Below, in pieces: positions 3,489-19,398 of a stretch of DNA of 40,626 nt. The translations under genes were made by a program, and so were the position numbers. The stretch's first letter is position 1. Each line of letters begins with the position of its first letter. The notes below the pieces were generated by a model. That model ran no database searches. It was not told where the DNA came from and worked only from the letters and a program-made list of their open reading frames with translations. This stretch comes from Sneathiellales bacterium (GTDB taxonomy: Bacteria > Pseudomonadota > Alphaproteobacteria > JANQFL01), in the NCBI GenBank assembly GCA_028277845.1, contig JANQFL010000078.1, positions 1 to 40,626 of the forward strand, in the 5' to 3' direction.

Positions 3489-3506
3489 CCTACCCGAACG
3501 GGTAGG
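3489..3506 (-). terminator. Perfect 8-bp inverted repeat between the response regulator and glpX
   Basis: CCTACCCG and CGGGTAGG are separated by two bases, so the RNA can form a 7-bp stem with a tetraloop. It starts about ten bases after the stop codon of the regulator gene and about 100 bases before glpX. No T-run follows on the minus strand, so it may be a weak terminator, a processing or attenuation hairpin, or a regulator-binding palindrome. The sequence shows the symmetry only, not the role. Confidence 0.4.
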
Positions 3507-3515
3507 TTGGGGCAA

Positions 3516-4160
3516 TCAGCCGTCGTTCAGATACCGTGCCACCGCCTGCGCCCGGTTCGACACCTGCAGCTTGTCATAAAGGTTTTTCAGGTGGAATTTC
3601 ACCGTATTGACCGAGATATCCAACGATTTCGCCAACTGCGCGTTGGTCTGCCCGTCCGCCAGTCCGGCCAGCAAATCCCTCTCCCGCGCCGTCAAGGAAT
3701 CCCCCTGGGCCGTGCCGCCGGCGCCGGCCCCGAACGGAAACACCATGCGCCCGGCGGCGACGGCGGCCACGGTGTCCACCAGCCGCTCCGGCGGGTCGCT
3801 TTTATGGCAGAAACCCGCGGCGCCGGCGGCCATGGCGTCGGACGGGATCTGCCGGTTCTGCGATCCTGTGTAGACGATGATGCGCGGCGGCTGATCGCTG
3901 GTTTTCAGCGCTTCCAGCACCGCCGCACCGTCCAGGTACGGCATTTCCCAGCCGATGATGCCGATATCGAAGCTCAACCGGTGCACCGCCTCCAGAAAAC
4001 GCTCACCATCGGATGCCACGGCAATCACATCAAACCGCGGGTCTTCATCCAGAAGCACGCGCAACCCGTTCTGCACGATCGGGCTTTTGTCGGCGATGAC
4101 GATTTCTGAAGGTCGCGTTTTGGGCATATCGGTGGATGCTAAGAGGACTGGAGTCAGCAT
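3516..4160 (-). CDS. LuxR/NarL-type response regulator with degenerate receiver domain
   Basis: Predicted DNA-binding regulator of 214 residues. A receiver-like domain spans about residues 18-140 and a LuxR-type helix-turn-helix about 150-213 (SLTARERDLLAGLADGQTN, then VNTVKFHLKNLYDKLQV). In the receiver the acidic pair reads Asp24-Lys25, and the phospho-acceptor position, usually Asp in a DxxMP context, is Gly70 (IIGWEMPYLDG). The Thr98 and Lys120 positions are kept. This looks like a pseudo-receiver that does not use Asp phosphorylation (inference). The ATG at 4160 is chosen because an AGGA stretch lies six bases upstream; a GTG at 4187 and an ATG at 4127 are alternatives. It lies upstream of glpX-prk-tkt on the same strand and is divergent from the methyltransferase gene, so it could control either; neither link is shown. 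Confidence 0.85.
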   Translation of the reverse strand: MLTPVLLASTDMPKTRPSEIVIADKSPIVQNGLRVLLDEDPRFDVIAVASDGERFLEAVHRLSFDIGIIGWEMPYLDGAAVLEALKTSDQPPRIIVYTGSQNRQIPSDAMAAGAAGFCHKSDPPERLVDTVAAVAAGRMVFPFGAGAGGTAQGDSLTARERDLLAGLADGQTNAQLAKSLDISVNTVKFHLKNLYDKLQVSNRAQAVARYLNDG

Positions 4161-4295
4161 ATCGTGTCCTGCCGCGTCGGCAACCACCTCAAATCTACCC
4201 CAGATGGTGTCGTGGACGCGGAATCACGCTTTACGGTAGATTAACCAATCGATTGCAAGATAAACCCAGGATTTTTGCGCGAGAACCTGTCAACC

Positions 4296-5240
4296 ATGCT
4301 TGGTGCATTGGCCCGGAACAAAGAGGCTGCGGCGAACGATGACACTCCGCAGCACTCTTTCAAGGAGCGACTCGTTGCCTGGTGGGAAGGTTACGACCTG
4401 CCAAGCACGACCGACGGCCATGCGGACCTCGTGGACGGTGACGAAGTCGAGGAAGTGGAAGGTCAGCCGACAGTGCGCAGCTGGCCGACGGAACGGATCG
4501 AATCCGTTCAGCAACTGTTCGGTGCCGGATTCACTTGGCCGGCCAGCGAGGAGTTTCTCGATTCCATCATCAAACCCCTGGGGTTGGACGAAAAGGCCAG
4601 CGTCATCAACATCGGCGCCGGCCTTGGCGGATTGGCGCGCCACATTGCCAAAAACGCCGGTGCCTGGGTCAAGGGCTACGAACTGGATGCGAAGCTGGCG
4701 GCCACGGGCGCGGAATTGTCGGAAATCGCCGGGCTGGCCAAGCGGGCCACGATCGAGCCCAGCGGCCTGACGACGCTGGATGCGCGGGATGGCGCGACCG
4801 ATGCCGTCGTCTCGAACATGATCTTGTTCACGGCGGAGGACAAAGCGCCCCTGCTGACCGAAATGCGCCGAGTTCTGAAACCCGACGGCCGCATCACCGT
4901 GGTGGACTACGTGGCGGGCGATCAGGGATCCGACACCGTGCCTTACACTGAATGGGTCAAGGCCGAACCGCGCGAACCCCATCTGTGGACGGTCGACGAA
5001 ACCCGCCAGGCACTGACGGAACAGGGCTTCAAGGTGAGCGTCGCCGAGGATGTTTCGCAGGAGTATCGCGACCAGGTTCTGATATCCTTTTCCGCCTATT
5101 ACGAGTTCCTGCGCGATCAGGACCATGACGGCAATCTGCACCAGTGGGCGCTGTGCGAGGGCGAGTTGTGGTCGCGCCGCATCAGCGCCATCAACGCCGG
5201 TGTTTTCAGCGTTTACCGGTTCTACGGACAGTTGGCATAA
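4296..5240 (+). CDS. SAM-dependent methyltransferase, substrate unknown
   Basis: Class I methyltransferase fold of about 314 residues. After an N-terminal acidic region, the SAM-binding motif I reads VINIGAGLGGLARHI at about residues 104-118, followed by a GYELD segment matching the acidic residue that contacts the ribose. A motif-IV-like stretch DAVVSNMILF and the post-motif LLTEMRRVLKPDGRITVVDY are clear. The C-terminal ~80 residues are less typical (YYEFLRDQDHDG, SRRISAINAGVFSVYRFYG) and probably form the acceptor site. The ATG at 4296 is used; a TTG at 4275 is in frame, and neither has a strong ribosome site. It is divergent from the degenerate response regulator, which may regulate it (inference). 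I do not recognise the substrate. Confidence 0.8.
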   Translation: MLGALARNKEAAANDDTPQHSFKERLVAWWEGYDLPSTTDGHADLVDGDEVEEVEGQPTVRSWPTERIESVQQLFGAGFTWPASEEFLDSIIKPLGLDEKASVINIGAGLGGLARHIAKNAGAWVKGYELDAKLAATGAELSEIAGLAKRATIEPSGLTTLDARDGATDAVVSNMILFTAEDKAPLLTEMRRVLKPDGRITVVDYVAGDQGSDTVPYTEWVKAEPREPHLWTVDETRQALTEQGFKVSVAEDVSQEYRDQVLISFSAYYEFLRDQDHDGNLHQWALCEGELWSRRISAINAGVFSVYRFYGQLA

Positions 5241-5241
5241 A

Positions 5242-5260
5242 CGGCGGAAATCGCCGGTTT
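5242..5260 (+). terminator. Weak terminator-like hairpin after the methyltransferase gene
   Basis: CGGCG and CGCCG pair across a five-base loop immediately after the TAA at 5238-5240, followed by GGTTT. The stem is short and the T-run is only three bases, so this is a weak candidate. A separate promoter for rpmJ begins a few bases further on. Confidence 0.3.
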
Positions 5261-10928: not shown

Positions 10929-12353
10929 TTAGTTTTGTCCGCCGACCCAGGCAATGCGCAACACATTGGTCGAGCCGGGCGTGCCGAAGGGTACACCGGC
11001 GGTGACCACCAGACGGCTGCCCTTGGTCGCCAGCTCTTCCTTCTCGGCAATGCGGCAGGCCTTGCGCACCATCTCCGAGAAGCTGGCGACATCGCTGGTG
11101 TGCACGCTGTGCACGCCCCACACCAGCGCCAGTCGGCGGGCTGTCTCGATCGCGGGAGTCAGGCACAGAATGGGCGCGTACGGCCGTTCGCGCGCCGCCC
11201 GCAGTGTCGTCGACCCCGATGTGGTGTAGGTGACGATGGCGGTGGCGCCGATGGTTTCGGCCACCTGACGGGCGGCTGCGGTGATGGCGTCGGCGGCGGT
11301 GGCTTCAGGGTTGGCGTGGTCGGCGTCCATGATGCCGCGATAGAGCGGGTCTTTCTGCACCTGGTCGGCGATGCCGCTCATGGTCTCGACCGCTTCCAGC
11401 GGATAGTCGCCGGCTGCCGATTCCGCCGACAGCATGACCGCGTCGGCGCCGTCATAGACCGCCGTCGCCACGTCGGACACCTCTGCCCGGGTGGGCACCG
11501 GTGCGTTGATCATGGATTCCAACATTTGCGTGGCGACGACCACCGGCTTGCCGGCGTGCCGTGCCGCCCGCACGATACGCTTCTGCAGACCGGGCACTTC
11601 GTTGACGGGCAGCTCGACGCCCAGGTCGCCGCGGGCGATCATGATGGCGTCGGACAGGTCGACGATCTCGTCAAGCCGTTCCAGGGCGCTTGGCTTCTCG
11701 ATTTTGGCCAAGACCGCGGCCTTGCCGCCGATGGCCTTGCGGGCTTCGGCCACGTCCTCGGGCCGTTGCACGAAGCTCAACGCGATATAGTCGACACCCA
11801 GGGTCAGGGCAAACGACAGGTCACGCCGGTCCTTGGTTGTCAGGGCGCTCAAGGGCAGGATCGTATCGGGCAGGTTGACGCCCTTCCGGTCGGACAACTC
11901 ACCGCCGACGATGACTTCCGTGTCGGCGCCGCGCTTGCCGACCTTGTTGACCCGCAGGCGCAGCTTGCCGTCGTTGAGCAGGAGATCGCTGCCGGCCTTG
12001 ATGGCGGAAAACACTTCCGGATGCGGCAGGCTCACGCGCTTGGCGTCACCCGGCTTCTCGTTGAGGTCGAGGCGAAACGCCTGGCCTTCCTCCAGGGTAA
12101 CAGCGCCGTCCTTGAACGCGCCGATGCGCAATTTCGGGCCTTGCATGTCGGCGATAATGGCAATGGGCCGCTTCATGCGTTTTTCCAGCGCCCGGATGAT
12201 CTTGACCCGGCGCTTGTGATCGGCGTGATCGCCATGACTGAAATTCAGGCGGAAGGCGTCGGCGCCGGCTTCGAACAAGGCGGTGATGGTCGCCTCGTCG
12301 GAACTGCTGGGGCCCAGGGTCGCCAGGATTTTCGTACTGCGTTGTCTTCGCAT
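10929..12353 (-). CDS. pyk: Pyruvate kinase
   Basis: Converts phosphoenolpyruvate and ADP to pyruvate and ATP, the last step of glycolysis. 474 residues. Visible are TKILATLGPSS at residues 7-17, RLNFSHG at about 34-40, the metal and substrate segment MIARGDLGVELP, and TQMLESMI plus PTRAEVSDVATAVYDGADAVMLSAESA. The C-terminal domain around residues 355-470 is present. It lies about 55 bases downstream of the glycerate 2-kinase gene on the same strand, so 2-phosphoglycerate from glycerate can be carried to pyruvate by products of one transcript plus enolase. This kinase-kinase pairing also occurs in tartrate and glycerate loci of other Alphaproteobacteria. Confidence 0.95.
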   Translation of the reverse strand: MRRQRSTKILATLGPSSSDEATITALFEAGADAFRLNFSHGDHADHKRRVKIIRALEKRMKRPIAIIADMQGPKLRIGAFKDGAVTLEEGQAFRLDLNEKPGDAKRVSLPHPEVFSAIKAGSDLLLNDGKLRLRVNKVGKRGADTEVIVGGELSDRKGVNLPDTILPLSALTTKDRRDLSFALTLGVDYIALSFVQRPEDVAEARKAIGGKAAVLAKIEKPSALERLDEIVDLSDAIMIARGDLGVELPVNEVPGLQKRIVRAARHAGKPVVVATQMLESMINAPVPTRAEVSDVATAVYDGADAVMLSAESAAGDYPLEAVETMSGIADQVQKDPLYRGIMDADHANPEATAADAITAAARQVAETIGATAIVTYTTSGSTTLRAARERPYAPILCLTPAIETARRLALVWGVHSVHTSDVASFSEMVRKACRIAEKEELATKGSRLVVTAGVPFGTPGSTNVLRIAWVGGQN

Positions 12354-12408
12354 CGCGCGAGCTTACTCTCCGTTTCAAGTCTCCGCCAACATGTATGCGG
12401 CAAACAGG

Positions 12409-13665
12409 TTAGAAGTTTGTGACCAAGATGGCCCGGAAATCGTTGACGTTGGTGCGGGTCGGGCCGGTCATCACCAGGTCGCCGATGGCGGAAAACAGGC
12501 CGTAGGCGTCGTTGTTGTCGAGACAGCCCTGCGGATCGATGCCGCGGTCACGGGCGCGGGCAAGCGTATCCGGCAGAACGACCGCGCCGGCATTGTCCTC
12601 GCTGCCGTCGATGCCGTCCGTATCGCAGGCGATCGCGTAGATGCCGTCGGCGCCGCTCAACGCCTGGGCGAGACCGAGCAAGTATTCCACATTGCGCCCA
12701 CCGCGCCCATTGCCGCGCACGGTCACCGTGGTTTCACCGCCGGACACGATCAGCACCGTGCGGCCGGCCGCTTTGCAGTCCAGCGCCAGGCGGGCGTGGA
12801 CCGCACCCAGTCCGCGCGCTTCGCCTTCCAGGTCGTCTCCCAGAACGATGGTCTCGAAGCCTTCCCGTTCCGCCAACGCCTCCGCGGCCGCGAGGGCGTC
12901 GGCGGCACGGGCGACGACGATGGCGTCCGATCGCGTCAAGTGATCGTCGCCGGGCTTCGGCGTTTCGTTGGCCGGGTCGGTAAGGCACGCCGCGATGCTT
13001 TCCGGCGGTTCGATGCCGTACTTGGCCAGGACGGCGCGGGCGTCGTCCAGCGTCGTGGCGTCCGCAAGCGTCGGGCCCGAGGCGACCACGGCCGGATCGT
13101 CGCCCGGCACGTCGGAGATCATCAGGGTCACGACGCGGGCCGGATAGGCGGCCCGGGCCAGACGGCCGCCCTTGATGGCCGACAGATGTTTGCGCACGCA
13201 ATTGATCTCGAAGATCGTCGCGCCGCTGCGCAGCAACGCCTTGTTGACGGTCTGTTTGTCATCCAGTGGAACACCGGGTGCCGGTGCCGTCAGCAAGGCG
13301 GATCCGCCGCCCGACAGCAGGCACAAGACCAAATCGTCATCGTCAAGTCCGTCGACCATCTGCAGCATCCGTTCCGCCGCTTTCCGGCCGGCCGCATCGG
13401 GCACTGGATGGGCTGCTTCCAGGACGTCGATATGTTCGGTTTCGGCGCCATGCCCGTACCGGGTAACCACCAGTCCCGACAGGTTCCCCGGCCATGCCGC
13501 TTCGACGCTCTGTGCCATCGCCGCCGCGCCCTTACCGGCACCGACGACAATGGTGCGGCCGGTGTCCGGCGGTGCGGGCAGTTGACCGGGCAAACAATGT
13601 TCCGGCAGAACGGCCTCGACTGCGGTGTCGAACAATCGGCGTAGAAAGTCTTCCGGTGAATCCAT
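12409..13665 (-). CDS. ttuD: Glycerate 2-kinase (MOFRL family; often annotated hydroxypyruvate reductase TtuD)
   Basis: Phosphorylates glycerate to 2-phosphoglycerate. 418 residues from the ATG at 13665, close to the family norm of about 420; a TTG at 13707 would add 14 residues that do not resemble the family. The N-terminal DUF4147 domain shows VVGAGKGAAAMA near residue 40, LLSGGGSALL, NCVRKHLSAIKGGRLA and MISDVPGDDP. The C-terminal MOFRL domain shows IVSGGETTVTVRGNGRGGRN and ACDTDGIDGSEDNAGA. It is first in a two-gene unit with pyk and is divergent from the N-formylglutamate amidohydrolase-like gene. Old databases call this family hydroxypyruvate reductase, but kinase activity is the better-supported function. 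With glcDEF it completes much of a glycolate-to-central-metabolism route. Confidence 0.92.
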   Translation of the reverse strand: MDSPEDFLRRLFDTAVEAVLPEHCLPGQLPAPPDTGRTIVVGAGKGAAAMAQSVEAAWPGNLSGLVVTRYGHGAETEHIDVLEAAHPVPDAAGRKAAERMLQMVDGLDDDDLVLCLLSGGGSALLTAPAPGVPLDDKQTVNKALLRSGATIFEINCVRKHLSAIKGGRLARAAYPARVVTLMISDVPGDDPAVVASGPTLADATTLDDARAVLAKYGIEPPESIAACLTDPANETPKPGDDHLTRSDAIVVARAADALAAAEALAEREGFETIVLGDDLEGEARGLGAVHARLALDCKAAGRTVLIVSGGETTVTVRGNGRGGRNVEYLLGLAQALSGADGIYAIACDTDGIDGSEDNAGAVVLPDTLARARDRGIDPQGCLDNNDAYGLFSAIGDLVMTGPTRTNVNDFRAILVTNF

Positions 13666-16476: not shown

Positions 16477-16654
16477 ATCGTCAGGAATAGTGCCGCAATA
16501 TCTCAGGTCTTTTTTCCTGGATGTTCCTGAAAGCGGAATAGGATCCGGTCATACAGGAACGACACGTCCTGACTCGTTCCGGAGGTATCTGACCAACGTG
16601 TCATGCCGCATATCTACTAGAGATCTACAAACAAAGTGTGGTAATTGCGTTCGC

Positions 16655-17452
16655 TCACTTGTCCTTTTTGCGGCGGCGTGCGGCCAGGATTCCGATGGTC
16701 CCAATACTGAAGAGTGCGAGTGCTTCGGGTTCGGGAACGGAATTCGCGGAAGGCCGTAGGTCGCCGTCCGACACTGAGGCCATGGGCAAGTTGCTCACGG
16801 TAATAGTGATGAGATCCAATAGGTCAGGATCATAGTTCGGGTCGAGTGAAATGATCGGGTCGACAATCGCAAACGCTGATCTGACGATCCCCGGGGTTGC
16901 CCAGCCAAGGATTGCTTCTGCGGACTTTGTGACGGTAAAGCCTTCGCCTGACCGCACGCCGGGGTACATCGATCGAGTGATCCTGTCGCTTACCACGCTC
17001 CACTTCTGCAAACCAAGGGAACTAAAAACTTCAACGCTCGCTATGGATTGGCCTCCCATCACCCAGAAATCCATATCTAACTTGATTGGAAGTCGGCCTG
17101 ACGGATCCAATCCTGTTCGGGTAAAAAAGATTGGAGCAACCTCAATTCCTACATGGTACGTATAGCTTGCACGCGCGTGCGCGTATGCTAGGCAACTGTT
17201 GCTGGCGCCAGGTATTGCTGCAGAAGTACAGTCAATAATTACTTGAGCCTTGGCTTCTTCAGTGAAACCGGCATTGCCTGCCCGAGCGAACGAATAGGCG
17301 TATCCAGGCGCACCGATTCCAGCATCAACATACAAAGTACGCGTACCGGGCGGCAACGGGATCGCTTGAGCTGTCCCTGCTATCCCAAACAGAACCAGAG
17401 TGATTAGAACGCCAGCTAACCTCTTAATTGTCGTGTTATTCGCATGCATCAT
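16655..17452 (-). CDS. PEP-CTERM sorting-domain protein, secreted
   Basis: 265 residues. A signal peptide is clear (basic start, hydrophobic stretch LAGVLITLVLFGIAGTAQA at about residues 11-29, probable cleavage after AQA). The C-terminus carries a PEP-CTERM signal: VPEPEALALF, a short hydrophobic helix, then a basic RRRKK tail. Such signals are cut and sorted by an exosortase (EpsH/XrtA type); none is in this window. The mature part is rich in Ser, Ala and Tyr with two cysteines and no enzyme motif that I recognise; a surface or biofilm-matrix role is typical. The ATG at 17452 is chosen for its strong GGGGAG site; the ATG at 17449 is also possible. Base composition is clearly more AT-rich than the neighbours, suggesting transfer. 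It is divergent from a LuxR-type regulator. Confidence 0.85.
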   Translation of the reverse strand: MMHANNTTIKRLAGVLITLVLFGIAGTAQAIPLPPGTRTLYVDAGIGAPGYAYSFARAGNAGFTEEAKAQVIIDCTSAAIPGASNSCLAYAHARASYTYHVGIEVAPIFFTRTGLDPSGRLPIKLDMDFWVMGGQSIASVEVFSSLGLQKWSVVSDRITRSMYPGVRSGEGFTVTKSAEAILGWATPGIVRSAFAIVDPIISLDPNYDPDLLDLITITVSNLPMASVSDGDLRPSANSVPEPEALALFSIGTIGILAARRRKKDK

Positions 17453-18007
17453 TGGACTCTCCCCGGCGAACTGAACTAGACGCAATATTGGTTTGGTTCG
17501 TATTCGTGTAGATCTTCGACACGACGAACTTGTTGCGGAATTGTCATCAGCGAGGAGTGTCGGTTTGCGCCGGAAGTTGGCGCCGGAACCTGAAAAAGCG
17601 AATGGACTTGCATTTCATTGTCACTTCCCGCAACACGACCGTTTCTTCTTCTGTAATTCCCATCTTGGCTGCTTGTTGTTGGTCTAGGGTATGCAGCCCG
17701 TGGCGTGCGTCAGCCCCCGTACGGGGGTAACGATCGCGTTTTTGTCTCAATAGATGGGGAAATGCGCCATCCTGAATAGTTTGAATTGCGACGGAATTAT
17801 TTTTTGATCAACACTTTGAAATGCTCGTTTTGCAGGCATCGCTTGAGAAAGTGCGTGCCACAGATTGATTTTGTATTTATTGCCTTTCCTTTAGATTACA
17901 GTAATTTGATTCTCCGATTGACGTTGCCTTCCATGTGAATATCGCGGGTGATGGCGTAACGGGGGGCAGCAAGCAGCTTTCATTGAGGAACATAGAAGGG
18001 GACGCGT
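17453..18007. other. AT-rich divergent intergenic region (555 bases)
   Basis: No convincing gene is present. It separates the PEP-CTERM gene (leftward) from the LuxR-type regulator gene (rightward). It is visibly richer in A and T than the rest of the window, with several A/T runs around 17790-17910. The one striking element is a perfect GC palindrome at 17714-17727, described separately. A related half-site-like stretch (GTAACGGGGGG) occurs near 17957-17967, just upstream of the regulator. Confidence 0.6.
17714..17727. promoter_or_regulatory. 14-bp perfect palindrome, candidate operator
   Basis: CCCCCGTACGGGGG is fully self-complementary and stands out in AT-rich surroundings. Its centre is about 268 bases from the PEP-CTERM start codon and about 287 from the regulator start codon, so it is near the middle of the divergent region. 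A dimeric LuxR-type protein is the natural candidate to bind such a site, but binding is inference. Confidence 0.45.
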
Positions 18008-19198
18008 TTGGCAACGCATCAAATGGACAGAACCCTAATGTTCGAAACGGTGGGTCGACTCTACGAAGCAGCCGCTAATCCTGAGCGCTGGCCAGCGGCG
18101 GTCGAGACAGCGGCTCAATTGTTCAACGCACCCATGGGACAGATCAATGTGTATAACGCGCGTCAGTCCCGCCTGAATTTTTCGGTTGCCCACGGTGTCG
18201 CTTATAGCCATCACGTGTTAAACCGCTATGCAGAATTAAGTGCAGGAGATCCGTTCACCCACAAGGCACTGAAGTATTCCGGCAAAGCTTTACGGTGCAG
18301 CCAGATCGCCGACCGATCGACCATACGAAAGTCTCAAATGTACCGGGAGATCCTTCAGCCTCACGGTATCGAATACCGCGTTGTCTCTATTGTCGGTGAC
18401 CAAGAGTCTCAATTCGGCATCTTTGGCCTAATGCGCGGATCCAATGATAGAGATTTCGACGACGACGACGTGGCCTTGATGAGCGATATCTTGCCCCATT
18501 TCCGTCAGGCTATGTCGCTGTACTCCACGCTCTCTACTGGAACAACCGGGGACAAATTTGCTCTCGCGGCACTCAACAGCCTGTCAGTCGGCATTGCCAT
18601 CGTCGATTCTAACGCCAGCGTGCTGTTTCTCAATACAGCAGGCAAGGCGATCATCGATGAAGAAGGAGGCTTTGCTTTACGTAACAATCACCTCACGGCG
18701 GACCGTCCAGAAGACGCAGTGAGGATGTTGGCAATTCTCCGCCAAATTATCGGCGAATCGAAGTCCGGTGTTTCCACGTCTGCCGACTTTTTAGTGCTCG
18801 GCCGTATTGACGGCGGGGCGCCACTTTCGGCAACCATTGCGCCGTTGGTCCGGCACGTTGACTTGCCCGTCCCACTCGCCCATGTCGATAGCCTAGCAAT
18901 CGTTGTATTCACTGACCCCTGCCGACAGATGGAGGTGCCGGCGGAACTGCTTCAACGGCTCTACGGCCTGACACCGGCGGAAGGCCGCCTGCTTGCTGAA
19001 CTGGTCGGCGGCCGGTCCCTGGAGGATGCGGCCCGCGCCCTCGGCGTCAAAAAAGAAACCGGCCGCAAGCGCTTGGCCAACATTTTTCAGAAGACTCAGA
19101 CCAATCGACAGGCTGAATTAGTCCGTCACGTATTGGCCAACCCTGTATGGATCACGGAACAAGCCAAACGACCCTCACTGGCCGTGGCTAGTGTATGA
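18008..19198 (+). CDS. LuxR-type transcriptional regulator with PAS-like sensory region
   Basis: 396 residues. The C-terminal helix-turn-helix lies at about residues 318-385 (LTPAEGRLLAELVGGRSLED, GVKKETGRKRLANIFQKTQ, then RQAELVRHVL). The first ~170 residues resemble the alpha-helical N-terminal domain found in a group of alphaproteobacterial LuxR regulators. Residues ~180-300 look like a PAS domain (SVGIAIVDSNASVLFLN). It has no autoinducer-binding domain that I can recognise. The start is TTG at 18008: AAGGGG lies six bases upstream, at correct spacing, while the in-frame ATG at 18023 is too far from it. It is divergent from the PEP-CTERM gene and probably regulates it and itself (inference). 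Confidence 0.85.
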   Translation: MATHQMDRTLMFETVGRLYEAAANPERWPAAVETAAQLFNAPMGQINVYNARQSRLNFSVAHGVAYSHHVLNRYAELSAGDPFTHKALKYSGKALRCSQIADRSTIRKSQMYREILQPHGIEYRVVSIVGDQESQFGIFGLMRGSNDRDFDDDDVALMSDILPHFRQAMSLYSTLSTGTTGDKFALAALNSLSVGIAIVDSNASVLFLNTAGKAIIDEEGGFALRNNHLTADRPEDAVRMLAILRQIIGESKSGVSTSADFLVLGRIDGGAPLSATIAPLVRHVDLPVPLAHVDSLAIVVFTDPCRQMEVPAELLQRLYGLTPAEGRLLAELVGGRSLEDAARALGVKKETGRKRLANIFQKTQTNRQAELVRHVLANPVWITEQAKRPSLAVASV

Positions 19199-19398
19199 AT
19201 GTTGAGGCAAGTAGATTATTTCAAACCTTCACCGTGCAAACATGCCTGGACGAGTTGCGCGGACTGACCTTGCTTTCTCGACGTATGCCTCCTTGTGGCT
19301 AATCTCCGAGACCTCCCACAAACAAAGTTGGGCTCGCAAATCTTCCAATAGCCGACGTCCGAACAACCGCTAACGGTCGCCGTAAACACGGACAAACC

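Follow-up and report, generated by a model that had tools for sequence, protein, structure and literature searches.

A PEP-CTERM surface-protein gene divergent from a LuxR-type regulator in a Sneathiellales bacterium, and its possible private control

We have analysed a 40,626-nucleotide stretch of DNA from a Sneathiellales bacterium (the window), in which a gene for a PEP-CTERM protein and a gene for a LuxR-type regulator lie divergently at 16655-17452 (minus strand) and 18008-19198 (plus strand). In this genome, LuxR-type genes stand beside PEP-CTERM genes far oftener than expected, an association noticed post hoc, and most of the PEP-CTERM genes so placed lack the PrsR/sigma-54 box. From this excess and this absence we infer, with belief and doubt in equal measure, that the window pair is a surface-protein gene with a private regulator outside the PrsR/sigma-54 regulon. 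The regulator would be a one-component sensor composed of a ligand-binding/GAF-like domain, a PAS domain and a helix-turn-helix (HTH), and it would control its PEP-CTERM neighbour, and probably its own gene too, from the region between them. The features are as follows.

16480-19398: AT-rich island, GC 0.528 against 0.625 for the whole window, with this gene pair as its sole content
Island flanks: a GapR-type gene and an SDR gene (families GapR and adh_short)
16655-17452, minus strand: PEP-CTERM protein of 265 aa, ATG at 17452, over cut-off for PF07589 and TIGR02595
16664-16738, minus strand: PEP-CTERM sorting signal VPEPEALALFSIGTIGILAARRRKK (TIGR02595, 26.5 bits in the genome scan)
17453-18007: intergenic region of 555 bp between the two start codons, with no PrsR/sigma-54 box and no sigma-70-like promoter match
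17504-17524: imperfect dyad TCGTGTAGA-N3-TCGACACGA from the repeat scan, 51-71 nt upstream of the PEP-CTERM start
17714-17727: perfect 14-bp palindrome CCCCCGTACGGGGG, probably incidental
18008-19198, plus strand: LuxR-type regulator of 396 aa, starting with TTG and preceded by a ribosome site that by eye resembles AGAAGGGGA
18017-18532, plus strand: N-terminal domain (residues 4-175) with the fold of LuxR ligand-binding/GAF domains
18575-18922, plus strand: PAS-like domain (residues about 190-305), from the model and from PAS families in relatives
18941-19135, plus strand: GerE/LuxR-type HTH (residues about 312-376), sub-threshold for GerE here and matched in relatives

The gene pair and its products

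The PEP-CTERM protein scored above the cut-offs of both PF07589 (25 bits, cut-off 20.7) and TIGR02595 (22.1 bits, cut-off 16). A PEP motif, a hydrophobic stretch and a basic tail are located at its C-terminal end, and a signal-peptide-like stretch was seen by eye at its N-terminus. Modelled alone, the protein gave an unusable fold (pLDDT 33.4). There is no exosortase within the window, and the only PF09721 match of the genome lies on another contig, C23. This protein is an exosortase A (XrtA), the cognate enzyme, with an EpsI domain (TIGR03109, 337.7 bits, cut-off 208; TIGR02914, 105 bits, cut-off 42.8), and it bears out the proposal of an earlier sequence-only reading that no exosortase is nearby and that the sorter is distant. 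Accordingly, the window product has a sorter in the genome. It would be exported via its signal peptide and processed by this single exosortase A. The same reading had called the PEP-CTERM protein single, which is right within the window and wrong for the genome, where we found 22 PEP-CTERM matches on 21 open frames. The genome also encodes PrsR (TIGR02915, 712.7 bits, cut-off 502.6) and two PrsT proteins over cut-off (624 and 606 bits), so that at least the response regulator and TPR parts of the known PrsR control system are present.

The model of the regulator (AlphaFold2, 68 aligned sequences) reached a pLDDT of 90.8 and showed the ligand-binding/GAF-like domain followed by a long helix, the PAS-like domain and the HTH. 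In structural comparison by VIA-align, the N-terminal domain resembled CepR2 (5l10; Z 15.1, rmsd 2.8, 159 aligned) and LasR (2uv0; Z 14.1), and GAF and phytochrome entries followed at a Z of about 13. A sequence search of solved structures yielded no more than a weak match to FixJ (E 0.04). Among the 68 aligned members, PAS_8 was matched in 14, PAS_4 in seven and PAS in seven. The GerE score of the window regulator itself is sub-threshold (13.6 bits, cut-off 23.5); despite this, we assign the protein to the LuxR type because full-length homologues match GerE (29 of the 68 members at E <= 0.01) and the model shows the HTH helices. On the other hand, none of the 68 members matched the autoinducer-binding domain PF03472 at E <= 0.01, so that the protein does not class as an AHL receptor, though the fold is alike. 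In the alignment, the column of D81 holds D in 48 of 68 members and N in 12, and that of Y74 holds Y in 48.

A FeeM/LuxI-like exosortase-associated acyltransferase (TIGR03694, 205 bits, cut-off 112) is encoded in the XrtA region (L033, G000:C23:44000-60000, at 12459-13430 on the minus strand). Together with the AHL-receptor fold of the LuxR-type regulator, this acyltransferase points to a speculative reading, which we consider improbable, that the exosortase locus produces an N-acyl amino acid which acts as the ligand switching on dispersed PrsR-independent PEP-CTERM genes. If so, the exosortase system would have its own chemical signal. No LuxI over the Pfam cut-off was found in the genome.

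LuxR-type neighbours of PEP-CTERM genes in this and other genomes

The genome encodes four paralogues of the window regulator, all of them lined up at C2:291669-296665, and an open frame of 596 aa that bears two PEP-CTERM motifs follows just downstream. In total, five of the ten LuxR-HTH clusters of the genome (on C2, C66, C81, C108 and C114) have a PEP-CTERM motif within 3 kb (binomial about 2e-6), a count that adds sub-threshold GerE members and leaves out spurious-looking sub-threshold GerE rows. When only GerE matches over cut-off are counted, it is four of nine clusters (4e-5). These probabilities assume a uniform model, and the association test was made after the pattern was seen. The neighbours differ in kind: C114 has a short LuxR-type protein (265 aa), C66 a protein with an HTH at both ends, and C81 a NarL-type response regulator adjoining what by eye is a histidine kinase-like gene. 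The same kind of pairing as in the window thus recurs within the genome.

Several details of these loci deserve separate mention. The 596-aa frame (L032, G000:C2:286000-303000, at 10967-12757 on the plus strand) joins two PEP-CTERM proteins head to tail: behind an internal PEP-CTERM motif comes a signal-peptide-like stretch. This double could be a natural fusion, the result of a lost stop codon or an assembly error. The C66 protein (L038, G000:C66:1-10000, at 4171-5244 on the minus strand), just upstream of its PEP-CTERM gene, has its strong HTH near the N-terminus and a weak one near the C-terminus. On C81, an AraC-type regulator (L043, G000:C81:4000-23900, at 3489-4400 on the minus strand) is divergent to an unboxed PEP-CTERM gene, C81a.

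Of 38 further class genomes with an exosortase, 22 encode a protein related to the five regulators, and PEP-CTERM genes are present in 24. We inspected 119 homologue loci, composed of 79 loci and 40 regions from class genomes (43 rows out of 50 profile matches, seven matches being left out). At five of them, a PEP-CTERM gene lies within 250 bp of the LuxR homologue: L089 and L097, both in genome G259; L118 in G111, divergent like the window pair; L184 in an Acidobacteria MAG, where two complete regulators stand in tandem; and L211 in a Nitrosomonadales MAG. This count excludes regex matches that we judged by eye to be non-PEP-CTERM tails (L088, L090, L098, L101, L108, L115, L231 and L251). Two Sphingomonas loci have a PEP-CTERM gene at 1.1 kb, and L155 has a weak A1-profile match (30 bits, 767-aa frame) about 5 kb from one. 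From the side of the PEP-CTERM genes, an HMM search found a LuxR HTH within about 10 kb at none of 60 regions from 16 other genomes. As checks of the HMM searches, the PEP-CTERM gene was recovered in 55 of these 60 regions and 133 of 137 were found on the homologue loci. We therefore discarded the idea that LuxR and PEP-CTERM genes are paired throughout the class; a few distant bacteria show the pairing again, and it is no general rule. In titles and abstract openings of the open-licence literature, we recognised no description of LuxR-type regulators beside PEP-CTERM substrate genes.

The exact pair of the window is not conserved. The PEP-CTERM protein had no homologue among 57 other genomes of the class, and the best identities to the regulator among the 79 loci were 31% for an alignment along its whole length (L183) and 37% for one covering part of it (L218). 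Since the pair has no orthologue, conservation cannot be used in its support. The AT-rich island claimed by the same reading is there, with the GC difference given above, and a plasmid search with it gave no match.

These results bear on an explanation by chance, namely that the two genes are accidental neighbours in an accessory AT-rich island, the regulator acting on itself alone or on different genes, with the PEP-CTERM gene as unrelated cargo. We regard this as a serious contender, though a doubtful one. The low GC of the island and the missing orthologous pair speak for it, as do the 60 PEP-CTERM regions elsewhere without a LuxR HTH and the 114 of 119 sampled homologue loci without a PEP-CTERM gene within 250 bp. 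However, it leaves the excess of LuxR HTHs beside PEP-CTERM genes across this genome unaccounted for, as well as the five adjoining pairs in other phyla and classes. Private control, for its part, is weakened by the regions elsewhere, which show that the pairing is not general, and by orientation. The genes are divergent in the window and at L118, on the same strand at C66, C81 and C2, and convergent at C114. Convergent genes have no common promoter, and this variability counts against private control.

The PrsR/sigma-54 box and the intergenic region

Upstream of many PEP-CTERM genes in proteobacteria, Haft 2006 (PMC1569441) describes a motif of 17 nt with TTTACA at its end, separated by about 63 nt from a sigma-54 motif. 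The same paper states that many PEP-CTERM upstream regions fall outside that class and that more regulators are still to be discovered. We scored the box at the 21 PEP-CTERM genes of the genome with leave-one-out matrices from the same genome and 60 shuffles per gene. Twelve genes have the box, mostly with the published spacing, at scores of 20.3 to 39.9 reached by none of the 60 shuffles; at the other nine it is absent, with scores of at most 10.2 reached by 2 to 45 of the 60. On both strands of the genome, the box pattern occurred at 18 places against two for a control. Box-like sites away from the listed PEP-CTERM genes (G000:C5:12559, C26:2180, C93:39532 and 39647, C96:60382, C2:181095 and C23:15377) may, judged by sequence, mark further members of the PrsR/sigma-54 regulon.

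The window gene is one of the unboxed genes. Over its full 555 bp, no pair of motif 1 and sigma-54 motif at a spacing of about 63 nt was found, and its score of 3.1 was reached by 45 of 60 shuffles. Also unboxed are C66, C114 and C81c, and the C2 double is boxed, so that four of five LuxR-adjacent genes lack the box against five of the 16 others (one-sided P 0.080, 21 genes). When the AraC-adjacent C81a is added, it is five of six against four of 15 (P 0.029). In G259 and G111, all three LuxR-adjacent genes are unboxed and five of ten sampled others are boxed; pooled with this genome, seven of eight LuxR-adjacent genes are unboxed against ten of 26 others (P 0.020), with the non-adjacent genes of G259 and G111 limited to those that belong to the 60 taken as a sample from the best-scoring list. 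The adjacent regulator would then replace the PrsR/sigma-54 wiring that most PEP-CTERM genes of this genome have. This complementarity is weakened by the other genomes overall, in which 20 of 66 PEP-CTERM genes score at least 20, meaning that box absence is common without a LuxR neighbour. Part of it could also come from operon structure, as C66 is on the same strand as its regulator and just downstream of it. The boxed C2 double, LuxR-adjacent as it is, counts against private control.

We think it unlikely that the window gene belongs to the PrsR/sigma-54 regulon through a diverged box missed by the matrices, with the LuxR gene as an extra input. The genome does contain a PrsR over cut-off, and the C2 gene shows that a LuxR-adjacent gene can be boxed. 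However, boxed genes (at least 20.3) and unboxed genes (at most 10.2) are cleanly split in score, and the window gene scores 3.1 over its full 555 bp.

A scan of the 555-bp intergenic region for sigma-70-like promoters found none. The exact 14-bp palindrome that the sequence-only reading placed near the mid-point between the genes is present, at a distance of 261 nt to the ATG of the PEP-CTERM gene and of 280 nt to the TTG of the regulator. This position would suit a LuxR operator common to both genes, as that reading supposed, and we rate the idea as very improbable. The 40.6-kb window contains 24 perfect palindromes with a length of 12 bp or more, seven of which reach 14 bp or more. In the 5.39-Mb genome the exact word is found a single time, with no copy near any other PEP-CTERM or LuxR gene. 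With up to two mismatches it was found at nine places in the genome, fewer than the 18 of a reversed control pattern. The palindrome is accordingly within what chance gives, and was rejected as a regulon operator. It was also considered as a terminator or special hairpin, and none was found; folding around it was no better than in shuffles (z -0.4). What stands of the compact unit that had been proposed is the sensor-regulator and the surface protein, with the sorter gene at another place in the genome, and the palindrome drops out of it.

The imperfect dyad at 17504-17524 is an alternative operator candidate, at a level that chance can give. A tandem 13-nt repeat, GTTTGCGCCGGAA / GTTGGCGCCGGAA, was also seen in the intergenic region at 17563-17588. 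The intergenic regions of the window pair and of the C2 cluster have no common word of at least 9 nt, and this, together with the fact that no operator was found, counts against private control. If the regulator nevertheless acts on its PEP-CTERM neighbour, it may do so by activation or repression, through a putative operator and in answer to a presumed ligand.

Relation to known systems and meaning

The closest known system is that of XrtA and PEP-CTERM with the PrsK/PrsR sigma-54 regulon, as given in parts of Haft 2006 (PMC1569441). The same sorting signal, XrtA, PrsR and PrsT are found here, and 12 of the 21 genes likewise have the pair of motif 1 and sigma-54 motif; unlike in that regulon, the box is absent at the window gene, whose neighbour is of the LuxR type. 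EpsA (TIGR03020), by its family name an XrtB/PEP-CTERM-associated LuxR-type regulator, resembles the case here in being an HTH protein of the LuxR type that is linked with an exosortase system. However, the window protein had no match to this family at E <= 0.01 and the C114 protein reached 28.8 bits, against an equivalog cut-off of 170. Moreover, EpsA goes by name with XrtB and the exosortase here is XrtA, and the LuxR-type genes here stand beside substrate genes scattered over the genome and not beside the exosortase gene.

LuxR solos and quorum-sensing receptors (LasR, CepR2 and VqsR) share the N-terminal fold (Z 14-15) and the C-terminal HTH with the window regulator, which differs from them in the PAS domain in between, in the lack of PF03472 matches among its 68 aligned members (E <= 0.01) and in a genome without LuxI over the Pfam cut-off. 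Regulators of YSIRK-targeted surface antigens (TIGR04094), which belong to Gram-positive sortase substrates, also stand beside the gene of a sorted surface protein. The AraC protein divergent to C81a matched this family weakly (30.9 bits, cut-off 200), and it is of the AraC type, not LuxR.

In summary, our results suggest that some PEP-CTERM surface proteins have private controls. Descriptions of how PEP-CTERM proteins are controlled concern mainly the PrsR/sigma-54 regulon, and Haft 2006 (PMC1569441) notes that many such genes lie outside it. If some of these are under the control of dispersed LuxR-type neighbours, individual surface proteins could be switched independently of one another, for example when biofilms or flocs form. 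In that case, these regulators would serve as handles for finding the purpose of each PEP-CTERM protein.
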